Shown here piece by piece: positions 37,933 to 44,825 of a stretch of 64,000 nucleotides of DNA. Both the position numbers and the translations under genes were made by a program. Location: assembly GCF_008630935.1 (NCBI RefSeq), contig NZ_CP043908.1, positions 620,001-684,000 of the forward strand, given 5' to 3'. Within the stretch, counting starts at the first letter, position 1. Each line of letters begins with the position of its first letter. The stretch is from Thermodesulfobacterium sp. TA1. Lineage in GTDB: Bacteria; Desulfobacterota; Thermodesulfobacteria; Thermodesulfobacteriales; Thermodesulfobacteriaceae. The notes under the pieces are model-generated. The model made no database searches. It had not been told where the DNA came from and was given only the letters and a program-made list of their open reading frames with translations.

Positions 37933-38373
37933 GTGGAAGTTTTTTATTTTACCTATACAGGGTTTTCTAAGGTTGTGGCTGAAGAGATAGCTTTCTCCTT
38001 AGGAATAAAACCTAAGGAGATAAGAACCTATAGGTTTCCTTATTTTTTATGGCTTTTTCTCTCTTTTATACCTAATTTGGCTGTTAAAAGTTGGTTTGAT
38101 CCACCCCAAGGTAAAAGGTTGATCGTTTGTTTTCCTAAATGGACTTTTAATTGTCCCCCTATAACCTATTTTTTAAAAAAAATAAGATGTAAACACCTAA
38201 TCTTGGTGATCTCTTATAAAGGATGGGGGAAAGAACACTACGAAAAGATATATAAGTCTTTAGGCTTAAAAAGATCTGAGCAAGTAGACCTGTTTTTTAT
38301 CAAAAAAAAGACCTGGCAAAAGAATTTATCAGAAATCATAGAGGTTTTAAGGAGAAAGTTGGATGCCTCATAA
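37933..38373 (+). CDS. flavodoxin-like protein
   Basis: 146 residues. The N-terminus VFYFTYTGFSKVVAEEIAFSLG has the flavodoxin phosphate-binding pattern TxTGxS. The rest is a mixed alpha/beta fold with an unusual aromatic stretch (RFPYFLWLFLSFIP) near residues 38-52 that could touch a membrane or partner. FMN binding is likely but not shown. The start is a GTG 7 bases after the mrp stop behind AAAGGTGG. It overlaps the next gene by 11 bases. Confidence 0.6.
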   Translation: MEVFYFTYTGFSKVVAEEIAFSLGIKPKEIRTYRFPYFLWLFLSFIPNLAVKSWFDPPQGKRLIVCFPKWTFNCPPITYFLKKIRCKHLILVISYKGWGKEHYEKIYKSLGLKRSEQVDLFFIKKKTWQKNLSEIIEVLRRKLDAS

Positions 38374-39904
38374 AGAGGTTGTAGAACAGCTTGAAAGAAA
38401 AAATAAAGAACTTTTAGCCTTGCTTGAGATTAGTAAAATATTAAGTTCCTCTTTTAACTTGCAACACAATCTTTACCAAAGTCTTAAAGTTTTATCAGAT
38501 ATTTTAGACATGAAAAGAGCAACTATTACCCTTTATGACAGCGAAACCAATACTTTACATATTTCCGTAGCTTATGGACTTACACCAGAACAGATAAAAA
38601 GGGGTATTTATAAAAAAGGAGAGGGTATAGTAGGTAAGGTTTTTGATACCGGAGAACCTATAGTAGTACCTAATATCGGGAAAGAACCGATGTTTTTAAA
38701 CAAAACCGGAGCAAGATTGACTAAAGAAAACATTTCTTTTTTATGTTTACCTCTTAAGATAGAAGGAGAGGTTTTAGGAGTTCTATCAGTAGATAGGATA
38801 TTTAGTGAGGATATAGACCTTAAGGAAGATATAAGATTTTTAAACATCGTATCTACTCTTTTTTCCCAGTACTTAAAGCTTTATCAGATGTTTAAAAAAG
38901 AAAAGGAAGAAAAAGAAAGTTTATCTTTAGAACTTAAGGGAAAATATCAGTTTAGAAATCTTATAGGTGTCTCTGATAAGATGCAGCAGGTGTTTAAGCT
39001 TGCACTCAAAGCAGCTAAGTGTAAAGCTAACATTTTGATTATAGGAGAAAGTGGGACAGGAAAAGAACTTATAGCTAAGGCCATTCATTTTGAAAGCGAT
39101 CGGGCTAATGGACCTTTTGTAGCTATTAACTGTGCTGCCATTCCTGAAACCCTTCTTGAGGCAGAACTTTTTGGCTATAAAAAAGGGGCTTTTACCGGGG
39201 CGCTTATTTCAAAGCCAGGTAAATTTGAATTGGCCAATGGAGGAACCATATTTTTAGACGAGATAGGAGATTTGCCTTTGTCTTTACAGGCTAAACTTCT
39301 AAGGGTTATTCAAGAAAAAACTTTTGAAAGGATAGGAGATACTAAGCCGATAAAGGTAGAAGTAAGGATTATAGCTGCAACCAACAGAGATTTAGAAGCT
39401 ATGATAAGAGAAGGTACCTTTAGAGATGACTTGTATTTCAGGTTAAACGTTATACCTATTTATATACCCCCGCTAAGAGAAAGAAAAGAAGATATTCCTC
39501 TTTTAGTAGAGCATTTTCTAAAAAAATTTAATCAAGAATATAACAAAAATGTACAGGTTTCTGCTGAAGTAATGGAAAAGTTGGTAGCTTATCATTGGCC
39601 TGGGAACGTAAGAGAACTTGAGAACACCTTAGAGAGGTTAGTAGTATTGGCGGAAAAGGAGTTTATTTCCTTAGAGGATCTTCCTTTTTATATAAGACAA
39701 GCTTCTTTAGAATTTAAGATTAAAAGAGAAAAAGATTTTCAAGAAAAACTTTTGCCCAATCAGATAGAACTCATAGAGAAAAAGGCTATAGAAGAGGCAC
39801 TCAAAGCTTGTAAATATAATCAAACTAAAGCAGCTAAACTTCTTGGACTTACCAAAAGACAGATAAGCTATCGTATCAAAAAATATGGCATACTCACAGA
39901 ATAA
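38363..39904 (+). CDS. sigma-54-dependent transcriptional activator, GAF-AAA+-Fis (NifA-like)
   Basis: 513 residues. A GAF domain (about 20-180) is followed by the AAA+ domain: Walker A GESGTGKELIAKAIH, the sigma-54-contacting GAFTGA loop, Walker B GGTIFLDEIGDLP, and the ATNRDLEAMI and FRDDLYFRLNVIPI blocks. The C-terminal Fis-type helix-turn-helix is KYNQTKAAKLLGLTKRQISYRIKKY. There is no receiver domain, so it senses a ligand or partner through GAF as NifA does. A GG-N10-GC promoter lies 100 bases downstream, before the glutamate-synthase-like gene, which is the most likely target. Confidence 0.93.
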   Translation: MPHKEVVEQLERKNKELLALLEISKILSSSFNLQHNLYQSLKVLSDILDMKRATITLYDSETNTLHISVAYGLTPEQIKRGIYKKGEGIVGKVFDTGEPIVVPNIGKEPMFLNKTGARLTKENISFLCLPLKIEGEVLGVLSVDRIFSEDIDLKEDIRFLNIVSTLFSQYLKLYQMFKKEKEEKESLSLELKGKYQFRNLIGVSDKMQQVFKLALKAAKCKANILIIGESGTGKELIAKAIHFESDRANGPFVAINCAAIPETLLEAELFGYKKGAFTGALISKPGKFELANGGTIFLDEIGDLPLSLQAKLLRVIQEKTFERIGDTKPIKVEVRIIAATNRDLEAMIREGTFRDDLYFRLNVIPIYIPPLRERKEDIPLLVEHFLKKFNQEYNKNVQVSAEVMEKLVAYHWPGNVRELENTLERLVVLAEKEFISLEDLPFYIRQASLEFKIKREKDFQEKLLPNQIELIEKKAIEEALKACKYNQTKAAKLLGLTKRQISYRIKKYGILTE

Positions 39905-39935
39905 AAATTTCTTTTTTGAGCTAAAACAACATTTT

Positions 39936-39950
39936 TGTACTTTTGTTACA
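39936..39950 (+). promoter_or_regulatory. possible activator-binding site upstream of the sigma-54 promoter
   Basis: TGTAC-TTTTG-TTACA is an imperfect inverted repeat (one mismatch), reminiscent of the TGT-N10-ACA NifA site but with N9. Its centre lies about 60 bases upstream of the -24 element, in the range for enhancer sites. It is weak on its own. Confidence 0.3.
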
Positions 39951-40003
39951 TTATTGTTAGTTTTATACCAGCTTTATTTTATGTTTTTTGGTAAATTTAT
40001 TTA

Positions 40004-40018
40004 GGCATGAATTTTGCA
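40004..40018 (+). promoter_or_regulatory. sigma-54 (-24/-12) promoter
   Basis: GGCATG-AATT-TTGCA matches TGGCACG-N4-TTGCW, with GG (40004-40005) and GC (40016-40017) separated by exactly 10 bases. The start codon of the glutamate-synthase-like gene is about 41 bases downstream behind AGGAGGGG. The matching activator is encoded immediately upstream. Confidence 0.8.
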
Positions 40019-40058
40019 TAAAACATGCACAAAAATTAAAATATAAGGAGGGGTAATT

Positions 40059-41639
40059 ATGAGCGTTTATCCAGGTCAACCCAACGCTAGTTCAGCAACA
40101 GGTACCCGTAACAGGGTTTCTGACCCAGCACCTTATTCTGGTATTTGTTCTGTCTGTTTAGACGGATGCCCAGGTTTTTGTGAGGTTGGTAAATCCTCTT
40201 TTAGAGGAAGAGAAATTCTTTATCCTCAACCTTTTGGAAAGGTCACTGCTGGTGCTACCAAGAAATATCCAGTAGATTACTCTCATCTTAACATTCAAGG
40301 AACCTGTGTAGGAGCAGTAGGTGTTGAACCAGACCCAGACAAGGCTACTTTTCCTGCGGTTAACACCGAAAGAGAAATAGGAAGGAATTACAAAATTAAG
40401 CTTAGAATTCCTATTTTTACCGGTGCGTTAGGTTCTACCGATGTTGCCAAAAACAATTGGGATGAGTTAGCCATTGGCGCTGCTATCTCTGGTATAATGG
40501 TAGTTATTGGAGAAAATGTAGTAGGTATGGACCCTGACGCCAAGTTTAAAAATGGGAAAGTAACCAAATCTCCAGAGCTTGAAAGAAGGGTTAAAGCCTT
40601 TAAAAACTGGTATGAAGGTTATGGAGAGGTTATTTTACAACAAAACGTAGAGGACTCAAGGCTTGCCTCTGCCGAATATGCAATAGAAAAATTAGGGGTT
40701 AATTGCATCGAACTTAAGTGGGGGCAGGGAGCTAAAGACATCGGAGGAGAGGTTAAGTTAAGAACTTTAGAAAGGGCTTTAGAGCTTAAAAAGAGAGGTT
40801 ATATCGTTGTACCTGACCCAGAAAATCCTGTTATTCAGGAAGCCTTTAAAAAAGGAGAAATTAAAGAATTTGAAAGGCATTCAAGGCTTGGAATGGTAGA
40901 TTATGATGATTTTATGAAAACTGTAGAACATTATAGAAAGGTTGGTGCTAAGTTTGTTTCTTTAAAAACCGGTGCTTATAGGATTACTGACCTTGCTAGG
41001 GCTTTAAGGTTTGCCTCTGATGCTGGTATTGACCTTGTTACTATAGACGGAGCTGGTGGTGGAACTGGTATGAGCCCTTGGAGAATGATGAACGAATGGG
41101 GTATTCCTACCATCTACTTACAGTCTATAGCCTATAATTTTGCTAAGGAACTTGCTGCCAGAGGAAAATACGTGCCTGATTTAGCTATAGCAGGTGGGTT
41201 TTCTCTTGAAGACCACATCTTTAAAGCTTTAGCCCTCGGTGCTCCTTTCTTTAAAGCAGTTTGTATGGGAAGGGCTTTGATGATACCTGCTTTTGTAGGT
41301 AAAAACATAGCTAACTGGTATAAAGAAGGGAAACTTCCTCCTGAAATCAAAAAATATGGCGACTCTCTCGAACAGATTTTTATCAACACAGAAATACTTA
41401 AAAAGAAATATGGAAAAGATTTTGAAAGGATACCTTGGGGTGCTGTAGCTATGTATACTTTTGTGGAAAGGCTTACCATCGGTTTAAAACAACTTATGGC
41501 CGGAGCCAGAAAGTTCTCTATTGAATATCTTGACAGAAACGACTTAGTAGCCCTTACTAAAGAAGCTGCTGAGGTTACAGGTATTCCTTATGTGATGGAA
41601 GCTGATATGGAAAAGGCTTATGAGATTTTGTTAGGATAG
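40059..41639 (+). CDS. FMN-binding glutamate synthase-family protein (stand-alone GltB synthase domain)
   Basis: 526 residues. The N-terminus has a cysteine cluster CSVCLDGCPGFC. The main part is the GltS/Glu_synthase barrel: RIPIFTGALGSTDVAKNNW, IELKWGQGAKDIGGEV, FVSLKTGAYRITDLARAL, and the FMN-binding region VTIDGAGGGTGMSPWRM with AIAGGFSLEDHIFKALALGA. There is no glutaminase domain and no GltD-like small subunit nearby. It may be an archaeal-type GOGAT core using ammonia or a separate amidotransferase. A sigma-54 promoter precedes it and glnA follows, with a strong terminator between, so control is shared in theme but not in transcript. Confidence 0.85.
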   Translation: MSVYPGQPNASSATGTRNRVSDPAPYSGICSVCLDGCPGFCEVGKSSFRGREILYPQPFGKVTAGATKKYPVDYSHLNIQGTCVGAVGVEPDPDKATFPAVNTEREIGRNYKIKLRIPIFTGALGSTDVAKNNWDELAIGAAISGIMVVIGENVVGMDPDAKFKNGKVTKSPELERRVKAFKNWYEGYGEVILQQNVEDSRLASAEYAIEKLGVNCIELKWGQGAKDIGGEVKLRTLERALELKKRGYIVVPDPENPVIQEAFKKGEIKEFERHSRLGMVDYDDFMKTVEHYRKVGAKFVSLKTGAYRITDLARALRFASDAGIDLVTIDGAGGGTGMSPWRMMNEWGIPTIYLQSIAYNFAKELAARGKYVPDLAIAGGFSLEDHIFKALALGAPFFKAVCMGRALMIPAFVGKNIANWYKEGKLPPEIKKYGDSLEQIFINTEILKKKYGKDFERIPWGAVAMYTFVERLTIGLKQLMAGARKFSIEYLDRNDLVALTKEAAEVTGIPYVMEADMEKAYEILLG

Positions 41640-41683
41640 TTTGAAACTCATTAAACATTAAGGGAGTTTAGATCTTAAGTATG

Positions 41684-41719
41684 GGGGTTAGACGGTCAAT
41701 TTCGTCTAACCCCTTTTTT
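41684..41719 (+). terminator. intrinsic terminator after the glutamate-synthase-like gene
   Basis: An 11-base perfect stem, GGGGTTAGACG (41684-41694) with CGTCTAACCCC (41703-41713), an 8-base loop and TTTTTT (41714-41719). It ends the upstream transcript before glnA, so glnA needs its own promoter in 41720-41780; I see no sigma-54 element there. Confidence 0.93.
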
Positions 41720-41794
41720 AATTGGAAGGTTTACTTTTTTTTATTTTGAGTTTTAATAAAACATAAAGAACGGACAATTAGGAGGCATTAAGAG

Positions 41795-43129
41795 ATGGTA
41801 ACAGAGAAACCTAGGGATAAAAAAGATGTGCAAGAACTTATCAAAAAGTATAATGTTAAGTTCGTTAGCTTATGGTTTACCGACATTTTAGGGCAGTTGA
41901 AAAGTTTTACGGTTGCGGTTGAGGAGTTAGAAGCTGCCTTTGAAGAAGGAATGGGTTTTGATGGGTCTTCTATTCATGGTTTTGCAAGGATTGATGAGTC
42001 AGACATGATAGCTATCCCAGACCCTACTACCTTTGCCCTTTTACCCTGGACTTTTCCTGAAAGAAATACCGCCAGGATGTTTTGTGATATCTATGAGCCA
42101 GGTGGTAATCCTTATAAAGGTGATCCAAGGTACATTCTTAAGATGAACCTTGAAAAAGCCGCAAAGCTTGGTTATACCTTTTATATCGGTCCAGAGCTTG
42201 AATTTTTCTATTTTAAAACAGATAAATATCCAGAACCTTTAGATGAGGCAGGATATTTTGACTATTCCTTAGATGCCGCTGAAAATATCAGAAGAGATAC
42301 TATCCTTACTTTAGAAAAAATGGGAATAAAGGTTGAGTATTCCCACCATGAAGTGGCACCATCTCAGCATGAAATCGATTTGAGATATGCTGAAGCTTTA
42401 ACGATGGCAGATATTGTTATGACCTATAGAGTAGTGGTAAAAGAGATAGCTAAGAGATATGGAGTTTATGCTACCTTTATGCCTAAGCCTCTTTTTGGAA
42501 AATGTGGAAGTGGTATGCATACCCATCAATCCCTTTTTGTTGGAGATAAGAACGCCTTTTTTGATGCAAGTGATCCTTTTTATCTTTCCAAGCTGGCAAA
42601 ACATTATACTGCAGGCCTTTTAAAGCATATCAAAGAGATAACCTTGGTGCTTAACCAATGGGTAAACTCTTATAAAAGGCTTGTCCCTGGGTATGAAGCT
42701 CCGGTTTACATCTGCTGGGCAAGAAGAAACCGTTCTGCCCTTATCAGAATACCTTTATACAAGCCTGGAAAAGAAAAGGCTACCAGGATTGAGCTTAGGT
42801 CTCCTGACCCTGCTTGTAATCCTTATTTGGCTTTTGCTTGTATGCTTAATGCAGGTCTAAAAGGTATTACCGAAAGCTATGAGCTACCTCAACCGGTAGA
42901 AGTTGACGTTTATCACTTAGACCCTGAAGAAAGGGCTTCCTTGGGTATAGATAACCTTCCCGGTAGTTTGATAGAAGCTATAGAATATGCCGAAAAAAGT
43001 GAATTACTAAAAGAAACCTTAGGAGAACATACTTTTTATAACCTTATAGAAAGCAAAAAAAGAGAATGGGATGAATATAGGATACAAGTTTTCCCTTACG
43101 AGTTAGAAAGGTATTTACCTATTCTTTAA
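41795..43129 (+). CDS. glnA: glutamine synthetase type I (alpha form)
   Basis: 444 residues. It shows GMGFDGSSIHGFARIDESDM near residue 50, the metal and glutamate site YIGPELEFFYF, KPLFGKCGSGMHTHQSL, and the flap and nucleotide region VPGYEAPVYICWARRNRSALIRIP. At 444 residues it lacks the insertion of the long GSI-beta form, and the adenylylation-loop tyrosine context (NLYDLP) of that form is not seen. Control is thus likely by feedback or transcription, not by GlnE. A ribosome site AGGAGG precedes the ATG. Confidence 0.96.
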   Translation: MVTEKPRDKKDVQELIKKYNVKFVSLWFTDILGQLKSFTVAVEELEAAFEEGMGFDGSSIHGFARIDESDMIAIPDPTTFALLPWTFPERNTARMFCDIYEPGGNPYKGDPRYILKMNLEKAAKLGYTFYIGPELEFFYFKTDKYPEPLDEAGYFDYSLDAAENIRRDTILTLEKMGIKVEYSHHEVAPSQHEIDLRYAEALTMADIVMTYRVVVKEIAKRYGVYATFMPKPLFGKCGSGMHTHQSLFVGDKNAFFDASDPFYLSKLAKHYTAGLLKHIKEITLVLNQWVNSYKRLVPGYEAPVYICWARRNRSALIRIPLYKPGKEKATRIELRSPDPACNPYLAFACMLNAGLKGITESYELPQPVEVDVYHLDPEERASLGIDNLPGSLIEAIEYAEKSELLKETLGEHTFYNLIESKKREWDEYRIQVFPYELERYLPIL

Positions 43130-43142
43130 AAGGGAATAATTG

Positions 43143-44825
43143 ATGTGCACACTAAACATAGGGTTGGTCCAAATAAACCCGGTTTTAGGAGATTTTGAAC
43201 AAAATTTAAATAAAGTTTTAGAAGTTTGGACTCAAGTTGACGGACATTCCCATATAGTAATTTTACCAGAACTTGCCCTTTGTGGCTTTTTCCCTGCAGA
43301 TTTGTTTTTTGAGACTGATTTTCTTTTAAACTTAAATAAAACAATAAAAAAATTGATAGAAGCCTCAGAAAATTTTAATTCAACCCTTATCATAGGAACC
43401 CCTTATTTTGACCGAGGACTTTTTAACAGCGCTTTAGTAATTAAGAAAGGGGCAGTTTTAGCAGGCTACTATAAACGCTGCTTAAACGAAACCCTTAATG
43501 AAAGAAAGTATTTTTATCAGGGTTTTAAACCTTTAATCATAAATTTTAAGAAGTTTAAGATAGGAATTAGCATAGGCTGGGATTGCTGGAAAGATAATGG
43601 CTGGTTTCATTTTTATGAAGATATGGATATAGACCTATTGATAAACTTAGGGGCTTTCCCTTATTATGTAGGGTCTTTTCAAGAAAGACAAAAGGTTTTT
43701 AAAGCCTTAGCTCAGAGGTTTAACTCCTATATAGTTTGTTCAAATCTTGTAGGTGGGCAGGAATGTTGGGTTTTCGACGGAAGGAGTTTTGTGATAGACC
43801 CTTATGAGGAAACTGCAGTCCTTCTTTCAGGATTTAAAGAAGATTTTTGCATTTTTTCAATAGATTATGAATCAATTCTTAGAAAAAAACTATCTAACAC
43901 ACAAGCTAAGAAAGAAATAGAACCTTGCAAGTTTTGTGTCTTTGATGAAATTTTTTTAGAGGACAAAAGAACGCCTTTGAGGTTTGATGGTAAAAAAGAA
44001 CCAAGCCTTGCCGAAGAAGAGAAAGTTTATAAAGCTTTAGTTTTAAGCTTAAGAGATTATGTAGAAAAAAATAAATTTAAAAAAGTGGTGTTAGGTCTTT
44101 CTGGAGGAATGGATTCTTCCTTAGTGGCTTGCATAGCGGTTGACGCTTTAGGTAAAGAAAGAGTAATAGGGGTTTTTATGCCTTCTCCTTTTACTTCTAA
44201 AGAAAGCAAGGAAGATGCTGAGGCCCTTGCCCAAAATTTAGGGATAGAGTTTTTAGAATATCCTATCGGAGAGGTTTTTGAGACTTTTAGGAAAACCTTA
44301 GGCTATTCTGACTTTGATGTAGCTGACGAAAACCTTCAGGCCAGAATTAGGGCTAACATTCTCTTTTATCTTTCTAACAAAAAAGGGTATCTGGTTCTTT
44401 GCACTTCAAACAAGAGCGAAGCATCGGTAGGATATGGGACCATTTATGGGGATATGGCAGGTGGTTTTGCACCGATAATAGATGTTTATAAAACGATGGT
44501 ATATAGGTTGGCTAAATATAGAAACCATCTTAAACCTGATATTCCAGAAAGGGTTTTTCTAAAAGTCCCTTCTGCTGAACTACGTCCCGGACAGACAGAC
44601 TATGAGGTTTTACCTCCTTATGAAATCCTTGACCAAATTTTATATCTTTATCTTGAAAAAAAGTATTCTTGTCAGGCTATTATAGAAAAAGGGTTTGAAA
44701 AGTCAGTGGTAGAAAAGGTATTAGCCATGGTTAAAAGGGCTGAGTTTAAAAGAAAACAAGCACCTTTTGGCCCTAAGGTTACTAAAATTTCTTTGGTAGC
44801 AGATAGAAATTATCCGGTAGTTTAA
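43143..44825 (+). CDS. nadE: glutamine-dependent NAD+ synthetase
   Basis: About 560 residues. The N-terminal nitrilase-type glutaminase has its triad: Glu in ILPELALCGFF, Lys in GYYKRCLNE and Cys in GWDCWKDN. The C-terminal synthetase has the ATP loop LGLSGGMDSSLVACI and SNKSEASVGYGTIYGDMAGGFAPI, then VPSAELRPGQTDYEVLPPYE. It amidates deamido-NAD+ using glutamine. The start is the ATG at 43143; a TTG is directly before it. It follows glnA by 13 bases, so the maker and a user of glutamine are paired. Confidence 0.94.
   Translation: MCTLNIGLVQINPVLGDFEQNLNKVLEVWTQVDGHSHIVILPELALCGFFPADLFFETDFLLNLNKTIKKLIEASENFNSTLIIGTPYFDRGLFNSALVIKKGAVLAGYYKRCLNETLNERKYFYQGFKPLIINFKKFKIGISIGWDCWKDNGWFHFYEDMDIDLLINLGAFPYYVGSFQERQKVFKALAQRFNSYIVCSNLVGGQECWVFDGRSFVIDPYEETAVLLSGFKEDFCIFSIDYESILRKKLSNTQAKKEIEPCKFCVFDEIFLEDKRTPLRFDGKKEPSLAEEEKVYKALVLSLRDYVEKNKFKKVVLGLSGGMDSSLVACIAVDALGKERVIGVFMPSPFTSKESKEDAEALAQNLGIEFLEYPIGEVFETFRKTLGYSDFDVADENLQARIRANILFYLSNKKGYLVLCTSNKSEASVGYGTIYGDMAGGFAPIIDVYKTMVYRLAKYRNHLKPDIPERVFLKVPSAELRPGQTDYEVLPPYEILDQILYLYLEKKYSCQAIIEKGFEKSVVEKVLAMVKRAEFKRKQAPFGPKVTKISLVADRNYPVV

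Follow-up and report, generated by a model that had tools for sequence, protein, structure and literature searches.

A predicted sigma-54 switch linking a NifA-like GAF activator to a GltS-like FMN protein gene in Thermodesulfobacterium sp. TA1

Which genes does a one-component sigma-54 activator control when it stands in front of a putative FMN enzyme gene, glutamine synthetase and NAD synthase, and to what signal does it respond? The question is raised by a locus of Thermodesulfobacterium sp. TA1, a hot-spring sulfate-reducing bacterium with a one-contig genome of 1.83 Mb, from which we analyzed bases 620001-684000 (64,000 nucleotides, hereafter the window, whose own numbering is used below). 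The activator gene, EBP1 (38363-39904), is followed on the same (+) strand by a gene for a 526-aa GltS-like FMN TIM-barrel protein (40059-41639, ATG at 40059), hereafter the target gene. Next come glnA, encoding a type I glutamine synthetase (41795-43129; TIGR00653, 520.9 bits), and, after a gap of 10 bp, a gene for a glutamine-dependent, amidase-fused NAD synthase (nadE, 43140-44825; PRK13981, 585 bits). The order target-glnA-nadE, with all genes co-oriented, is identical in the four species that possess the locus, and the nearest named relative of the target gene, from Thermodesulfobacterium thermophilum DSM 1276, is 98% identical and shares the gene order. EBP1 is located behind a MrpORP-type Fe-S carrier gene; the 146-aa ORF between the two (37933-38373) has no Pfam or NCBIfam match and belongs to a cluster with nine members in the loci compared. 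These open reading frames agree with an earlier note on this DNA, which described a sigma-54 activator gene directly upstream of the promoter region and glnA and nadE downstream. The note also let its reading depend on sigma-54 being encoded in the genome; a profile search found the sigma-54 gene in a single copy (206.9 bits), together with 16 PF00158 matches, including 11 strong sigma-54 activators.

Sigma-54 promoters are recognized by a GG-N10-GC pattern in a TGGCAYG-N4-TTGCW-like context. The sequence AGGCATG-AATT-TTGCA at 40003-40018 (+) has GG at 40004-40005, ten bases, and GC at 40016-40017, and it matches every specified position of TGGCAYG-N4-TTGCW except the first (A for T). Its core, GGCATG-AATT-TTGCA (40004-40018), ends 41 bases before the target ATG, as the earlier note had recognized. 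There are two exact matches to GGCAYGNNNNTTGCW genome-wide (about 1.4 expected by base composition), and within the 154 bases between EBP1 and the target gene, on the correct strand, 5.8e-5 would be expected; with one mismatch allowed, the pattern has 56 matches in the genome, versus 25 for the reversed pattern. The sole other exact match lies at genome position 1305625-1305639 (+) (G000:C1, locus L091). An alignment of the gap was built from the window, three further species and a T. thermophilum record that matches one of the three. It shows that the position of the promoter is kept in all four species while the surrounding sequence has drifted, with constant spacing of GGCAT and TTG; G023 has TTGTA instead of TTGCA as its -12 element. 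By the sigma-54 convention, transcription would start at 40029 (+), 12 nt downstream of the C in the -12 GC. Loose consensus matches are plentiful (94 for GGYAYRNNNNTTGNW, 38 for its reversed control), and a weak sigma-70 match at 40013-40042 overlaps the element, so that one might suppose a chance match and transcription of the target gene from a sigma-70 promoter. Against the rarity of the exact match, its position and its conservation in four species, we regard this as highly improbable. As judged from sequence and comparison, the sigma-54 promoter at 40003-40018 is real.

The candidate for its activation is EBP1, a 513-aa protein with a GAF domain, an AAA+ sigma-54 interaction domain, a lid and a Fis-type HTH (Pfam PF01590, PF00158, PF25601 and PF02954). 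The AAA+ domain (PF00158, 247.9 bits) contains the GAFTGA motif and intact Walker A and B motifs, and the N-terminal part consists of GAF only, with no receiver family matched in the Pfam scan. A GAFTGA-bearing AAA+ domain and a sensory domain are thus found in the same chain, as in one-component sigma-54 activators (bEBPs). Against the NCBIfam nifA model (TIGR01817) EBP1 scores 527.2 bits, a near miss 1.7 bits under the cut-off of 528.85, and among solved structures a NifA (9qq6) is closest to it, with Nlh1 and Nlh2 closest for the GAF domain. The earlier description of a NifA-like GAF sensor lacking a two-component receiver is consistent with both the domains and this score. No protein of the genome reaches the NtrC cut-off (558.6; best 419.6), and none reaches that of nifH, which is exceeded in 11 of the 41 genomes of the class. 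In a tree of 39 activators, those from glnA neighbourhoods form one group (22 rows, support 93/89), the other groups being found next to nifH, mostly next to a poly(A)-polymerase-like gene, or next to glnK. Of 21 related genomes with a match to the window glnA, 16 have an activator of the EBP1 clade as the immediate neighbour of this gene. The remaining five are G031, with one gene between activator and glnA, G025 and G026, both contig-edge cases, G029, and G030, which has no EBP1-type activator and two glnA genes, neither with an upstream sigma-54 site.

Two copies of an ACA-N4-TGT dyad upstream of the promoter are the putative activator sites: ACATTTTTGT at 39929-39938 (+), at about -100 to -91 relative to the predicted start, and ACATTATTGT at 39948-39957 (+), about -81 to -72 and 19 bp downstream of the first. 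The first copy and the 19-bp spacing are kept in all four species. The earlier note had placed activator binding at the imperfect palindrome TGTACTTTTGTTACA (39936-39950). The palindrome is present, but it is composed of the right half of the first copy, the spacer and the left half of the second; as ACA-N4-TGT is what recurs, and the palindrome spans the interval between tandem copies, its reading as the site is unsupported. The search for the same palindrome before other genes, which the note had proposed, leads to ACA-N4-TGT repeated in the upstream regions of the family instead.

From upstream of glnA, glnK or the target gene we collected 39 regions, of which 26 have a sigma-54-like site and 13 have none over the threshold of a hand-made weighting of the consensus, which served in place of a trained matrix here and in the sigma-54 counts below. 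Dyads were counted in 23 of the 26, the near-duplicates L161 and L162 and the region L183, which is below the length limit, being dropped. ACA-N4-TGT occurs at 29 sites in 16 of the 23 regions, whereas 200 dinucleotide shuffles average 1.25 sites and never exceed 5; this significance is overstated because the regions are related to one another. The extended form ACAA-N2-TTGT is found 21 times in 13 regions (shuffle mean 0.29); ACAA is the commoner beginning in the family, and the two window copies start with ACAT. Seven of the 23 regions have no exact ACA-N4-TGT, including the three counted glnA2 regions of a second activator (see below). The tandem core TTGT-N6-11-ACANNNTTGT has eight matches in the genome, of which the window copy alone is followed by a sigma-54 site, an argument that the regulon is very small.

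The binding site of NifA is TGT-N10-ACA, and this canonical form was considered and rejected as the recurring unit. The stretch 39905-40003, by reading, contains TGT-N9-ACA and no N10 form. In the 23 regions the enrichment of these patterns (9 matches to TGT-N9-ACA; 11 matches to TGT-N10-ACA in 8 regions) is milder than that of ACA-N4-TGT, and we take it as a by-product of tandem ACA-N4-TGT copies at varying spacing; between loci the TGT-Nk-ACA spacing is variable, whereas ACA-N4-TGT is fixed. As a separate observation, TGT-N10-ACA does not occur in the 300 bases that precede the leading gene of the nifH cluster in any of five nif-bearing loci of relatives (L187, L189, L191, L193 and L195), four of which have a sigma-54-like site; the NifA of these relatives may use another site. 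The literature consulted, largely without subscription papers and including the accessible portions of PMC4641369, PMC12316311, PMC2725144 and PMC9866876, contains no report of the locus or of the ACA-N4-TGT site.

The same genome possesses a second activator of this type, EBP2, which is 63% identical to EBP1. It is encoded in a cluster at 713-723 kb of the genome, where glnA2 is divergent from EBP2 and is accompanied by glutamate synthase genes (a GltB FMN subunit at 453 bits, a glutaminase and a GXGXG protein), glnK and amtB; the only PII gene of the genome is the one beside EBP2. Sigma-54-like sites precede glnA2, glnK (G000:C1:721130-721144, +, about 25 bp upstream) and gltB (G000:C1:716462-716476, -, about 50 bp upstream). 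Given the identity of the two activators, the NifA-like character of both HTH regions and the position of glnK beside EBP2, it could be EBP2 that activates the target promoter, or both proteins might cross-activate, the adjacency of EBP1 being historical. The gap between glnA2 and EBP2, however, holds a strongly conserved block that is different from the gap before the target gene and has no exact ACA-N4-TGT in the glnA2/EBP2 regions counted, so EBP1 and EBP2 probably read different sites. The predicted recognition helices are also unlike (TKRQISYRIKK in EBP1 and TRRQLNYR in EBP2), and we consider control by EBP2 quite unlikely. EBP1 remains the predicted regulator of the target gene.

Two further features of the second cluster were observed. 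A mini sigma-54 activator of 237-240 aa is encoded 2 bp after glnA2 (L180:11550-12263, -, corresponding to G000:C1:716549-717262), with relatives at L158:2140-2862, L160:5964-6686 and L162:6144-6866, and occurs in all four species with EBP2. It keeps Walker A and the lid; the GAFTGA loop, Walker B, GAF and HTH are missing. Its dN/dS is about 0.16-0.18 (NG86). The protein might act on the activators as a dominant-negative partner. The gap between EBP2 and glnK (L180:15506-16170) is long and contains many broken frames, and three relatives have a GATase-like gene there; in the window genome it is perhaps a decayed insertion.

How far transcription from the sigma-54 promoter extends is suggested by the region between the target gene and glnA. 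An intrinsic terminator at 41683-41719 (+) consists of a 13-bp stem (41683-41714; GGGGGTTAGACGG-loop-TCGTCTAACCCCT) followed by a T run, with a folding energy of -23.2 kcal/mol (z -5.1), a stability that no shuffle out of 200 attained. Across the four species 52 of 52 stem cells are paired and three pairs are changed on both sides, compared with 54-61% pairing in slid controls; when the 3' letters were shuffled, the observed values were reached in 10 of 500 trials. Downstream, the alignment shows a conserved block at 41726-41757 (+) that we read as a candidate sigma-70-like promoter for glnA, with TTTACT (41730-41735), 16 bases and TTTAAT (41752-41757), which was not listed by a consensus promoter scan. 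No sigma-54 site precedes glnA in the four species with the locus, the best score before the window glnA being 8.4 on the hand-made weighting. Taken together, the conserved, covarying terminator, the sigma-70-like block and the lack of a sigma-54 site before glnA suggest that the sigma-54 unit is probably the target gene alone, with possible read-through, and glnA probably belongs to a separate unit. These features speak against the inclusion of glnA and nadE in the same unit, as the earlier note had it. The alternative is a longer glt-glnA-nadE operon driven by the sigma-54 promoter, in which the hairpin would act as an attenuator or leaky terminator and glnA would have no strong promoter of its own. 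The co-oriented genes, the 10-bp glnA-nadE gap and the order kept in four species fit such an operon, as does the presence in relatives of the same type of site and promoter before glnA itself. Set against the stability and covariation of the stem with its T run, the spacing of the conserved sigma-70-like block and the four species without a sigma-54 site before glnA, the long operon appears rather unlikely. Under the one-gene reading the terminator may still leak, so that some RNA from the sigma-54 promoter reaches glnA.

What the target gene encodes is answered in part by its fold. The match to PF01645 is partial (55.4 bits, 125 of 369 positions), NCBIfam has no family for the protein, and a phmmer search of the PDB returned designed TIM barrels only, with weak scores. 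A structure model (pLDDT 80.4, pTM 0.85) resembles FMN TIM-barrel enzymes generally, with flavocytochrome b2 (Z 25.0, rmsd 4.3, 310 residues) closely followed by hydroxyacid oxidases and type 2 IPP isomerase. Foldseek matches include glutamate synthase 1ofd, but flavocytochrome b2-type oxidases come first in the VIA rows. In an hhalign comparison with the GltB of the same genome, the probability is 94% over 257 columns, and the GQGAK and GGTG stretches are common to both. Glutamate synthases carry 3Fe-4S cysteines as CX5CX4-5C after the barrel. This pattern is present in the genome's own GltB, is matched by 3 of 40 members of the target family and is absent in the target, and an N-terminal CX2CX3CX3C is found in all 40. 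Glutaminase and GXGXG partner genes were not found among the eight window ORFs scanned, and both adjoin the real GltB (L180:7986-11411). The target is thus best described, from its sequence, as a distant, uncharacterised GltS-like FMN barrel protein. The function of a stand-alone glutamate synthase domain, assigned in the earlier note, is unsupported, since the distant barrel lacks the 3Fe-4S cysteines and the real glutamate synthase is encoded elsewhere in the genome.

The taxonomic distribution of the target is patchy. At E 1e-100 or better, a 96-98% identical copy is carried by the window genome and three others among the 41 genomes of the class, three genomes have a 53-54% identical form and 34 have none. 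Metagenome bins, several of them labelled Thermodesulfovibrio or Nitrospirae, contain copies that are 84-87% identical; this, together with the patchy distribution, suggests that the gene was likely gained laterally. We further analyzed the neighbourhoods of 76 target homologues. NrpR-like genes are found in 26 loci, GAF-ANTAR genes in 9, NtrC-type activators in 8, glnA in 7, PII in 6 and GDH in 5, and 32 loci have none of these; NrpR, GAF-ANTAR, PII and GDH were named from one representative per cluster, and the others from sequence and BLAST match. The GAF-ANTAR genes (L039, L041, L045, L048, L059, L060, L061, L072 and L081), from Deltaproteobacteria and others, appear to be a third type of regulator near target homologues, as seen in the one representative checked. 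An NrpR-type operator, searched with NrpR operator patterns, precedes the homologues in only 2 of 72 regions, and sigma-54 sites scoring 16 or more on the same hand-made weighting are scattered over 3 of 72 regions outside the four species. Without a consistent sigma-54 site elsewhere, sigma-54 control of the target would be a local arrangement. The neighbour genes support a nitrogen role for the target.

A broader reading is offered only tentatively, as one we hold possible yet somewhat less than probable. The target would be no glutamate synthase; it would represent an uncharacterised, nitrogen-status family of FMN/iron-sulfur enzymes that, in different phyla, came under nitrogen regulators unrelated to one another: NrpR-type repressors in Nitrospirota and others, GAF-ANTAR proteins in Deltaproteobacteria and a NifA-like sigma-54 activator here. 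In Thermodesulfobacterium the gene would have arrived by lateral transfer and taken over an enhancer of glnA type together with a sigma-54 promoter, while glnA was left to a promoter of its own downstream of a terminator.

For the locus itself, we are fairly confident of a local, probably one-gene sigma-54 switch run by EBP1 under nitrogen limitation. When nitrogen is ample, the GAF domain of EBP1 would hold the AAA+ ring inactive. Under limitation, EBP1 would assemble on the tandem ACA-N4-TGT sites (39929-39938 and 39948-39957) and loop to sigma-54 RNA polymerase at 40003-40018; the transcript, beginning near 40029, would comprise the GltS-like FMN gene and end at the terminator (41683-41719), while glnA-nadE would be transcribed mainly from their own promoter. 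The signal is inferred to be nitrogen status, with 2-oxoglutarate or GlnK acting on the GAF domain. Some features would suit another signal, such as redox, sulfur or energy state, with a different GAF ligand: according to PMC9866876, no ligand is known for the GAF domain of Nlh1, the nearest relative with a solved structure, the target is an FMN-type enzyme whose cysteines could bind a cluster, and EBP1 follows the MrpORP-type gene. The glnA adjacency of EBP1-clade activators in 16 of 21 genomes and the NrpR, PII, glnA or GDH genes near target homologues in many loci make such a signal a less favoured, unlikely option. The same two lines of evidence uphold the nitrogen setting of the local regulon proposed earlier; the membership of glnA and nadE in it is not supported.

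By comparison with NifA of nitrogen fixers (TIGR01817; PDB 9qq6), EBP1 is similar over its full length (1.2e-109 to 9qq6). It differs in scoring just under the family cut-off, in residing in a genome without a nifH over cut-off and in having ACA-N4-TGT sites rather than TGT-N10-ACA; moreover, in nif-bearing relatives nifH is adjoined by a different activator clade. The NrpR-associated loci of Nitrospirota, Chloroflexota and others share a target homologue with the window, but have nearby a repressor gene of another family where the window has a sigma-54 activator. Closer in kind are Nlh1 (PDB 4g3k, 4g3w) and Nlh2 (4g3v), NifA-like homologues that a review assigns to Aquifex aeolicus; the same review holds that Nlh1 probably has nitrogen assimilation, and not fixation, under its control (PMC9866876). 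Like EBP1, both are GAF-AAA+-HTH one-component sigma-54 activators of a thermophile, and the EBP1 GAF sequence matches them at 1.3e-30 (Nlh1) and 1.5e-26 (Nlh2). EBP1 likewise is a NifA-like GAF activator found in a nif-less genome beside ammonium-assimilation genes. Compared with Nlh1, the EBP1 locus adds a target promoter, tandem sites and an adjacent single-gene target identified by comparison, and this target is a GltS-like FMN protein. In Geobacter sulfurreducens, likewise an anaerobe, RpoN controls glnB-glnA and GOGAT from sigma-54 promoters before ammonium-assimilation genes, and the predicted RpoN targets include a "glutamate synthase-related" gene; in contrast to the window unit, glnA and a multi-gene GOGAT unit are part of these operons, and the accessible part of that report names no NifA-type GAF activator for them (PMC2725144). 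In kind, the switch is an Nlh1-like nitrogen-assimilation switch, a type already known.

With its landing site and target redefined, the switch becomes testable: the locus offers a defined, predicted enhancer-promoter pair on which a NifA-type activator of a nitrogenase-less lineage would act. It bears on the question of whether NifA-like GAF activators served ammonium assimilation in addition to nitrogen fixation, or even earlier. The analysis further brings to view a widespread, unnamed family of GltS-like enzymes, whose substrate is worth finding because the gene accompanies nitrogen regulators of quite different families.
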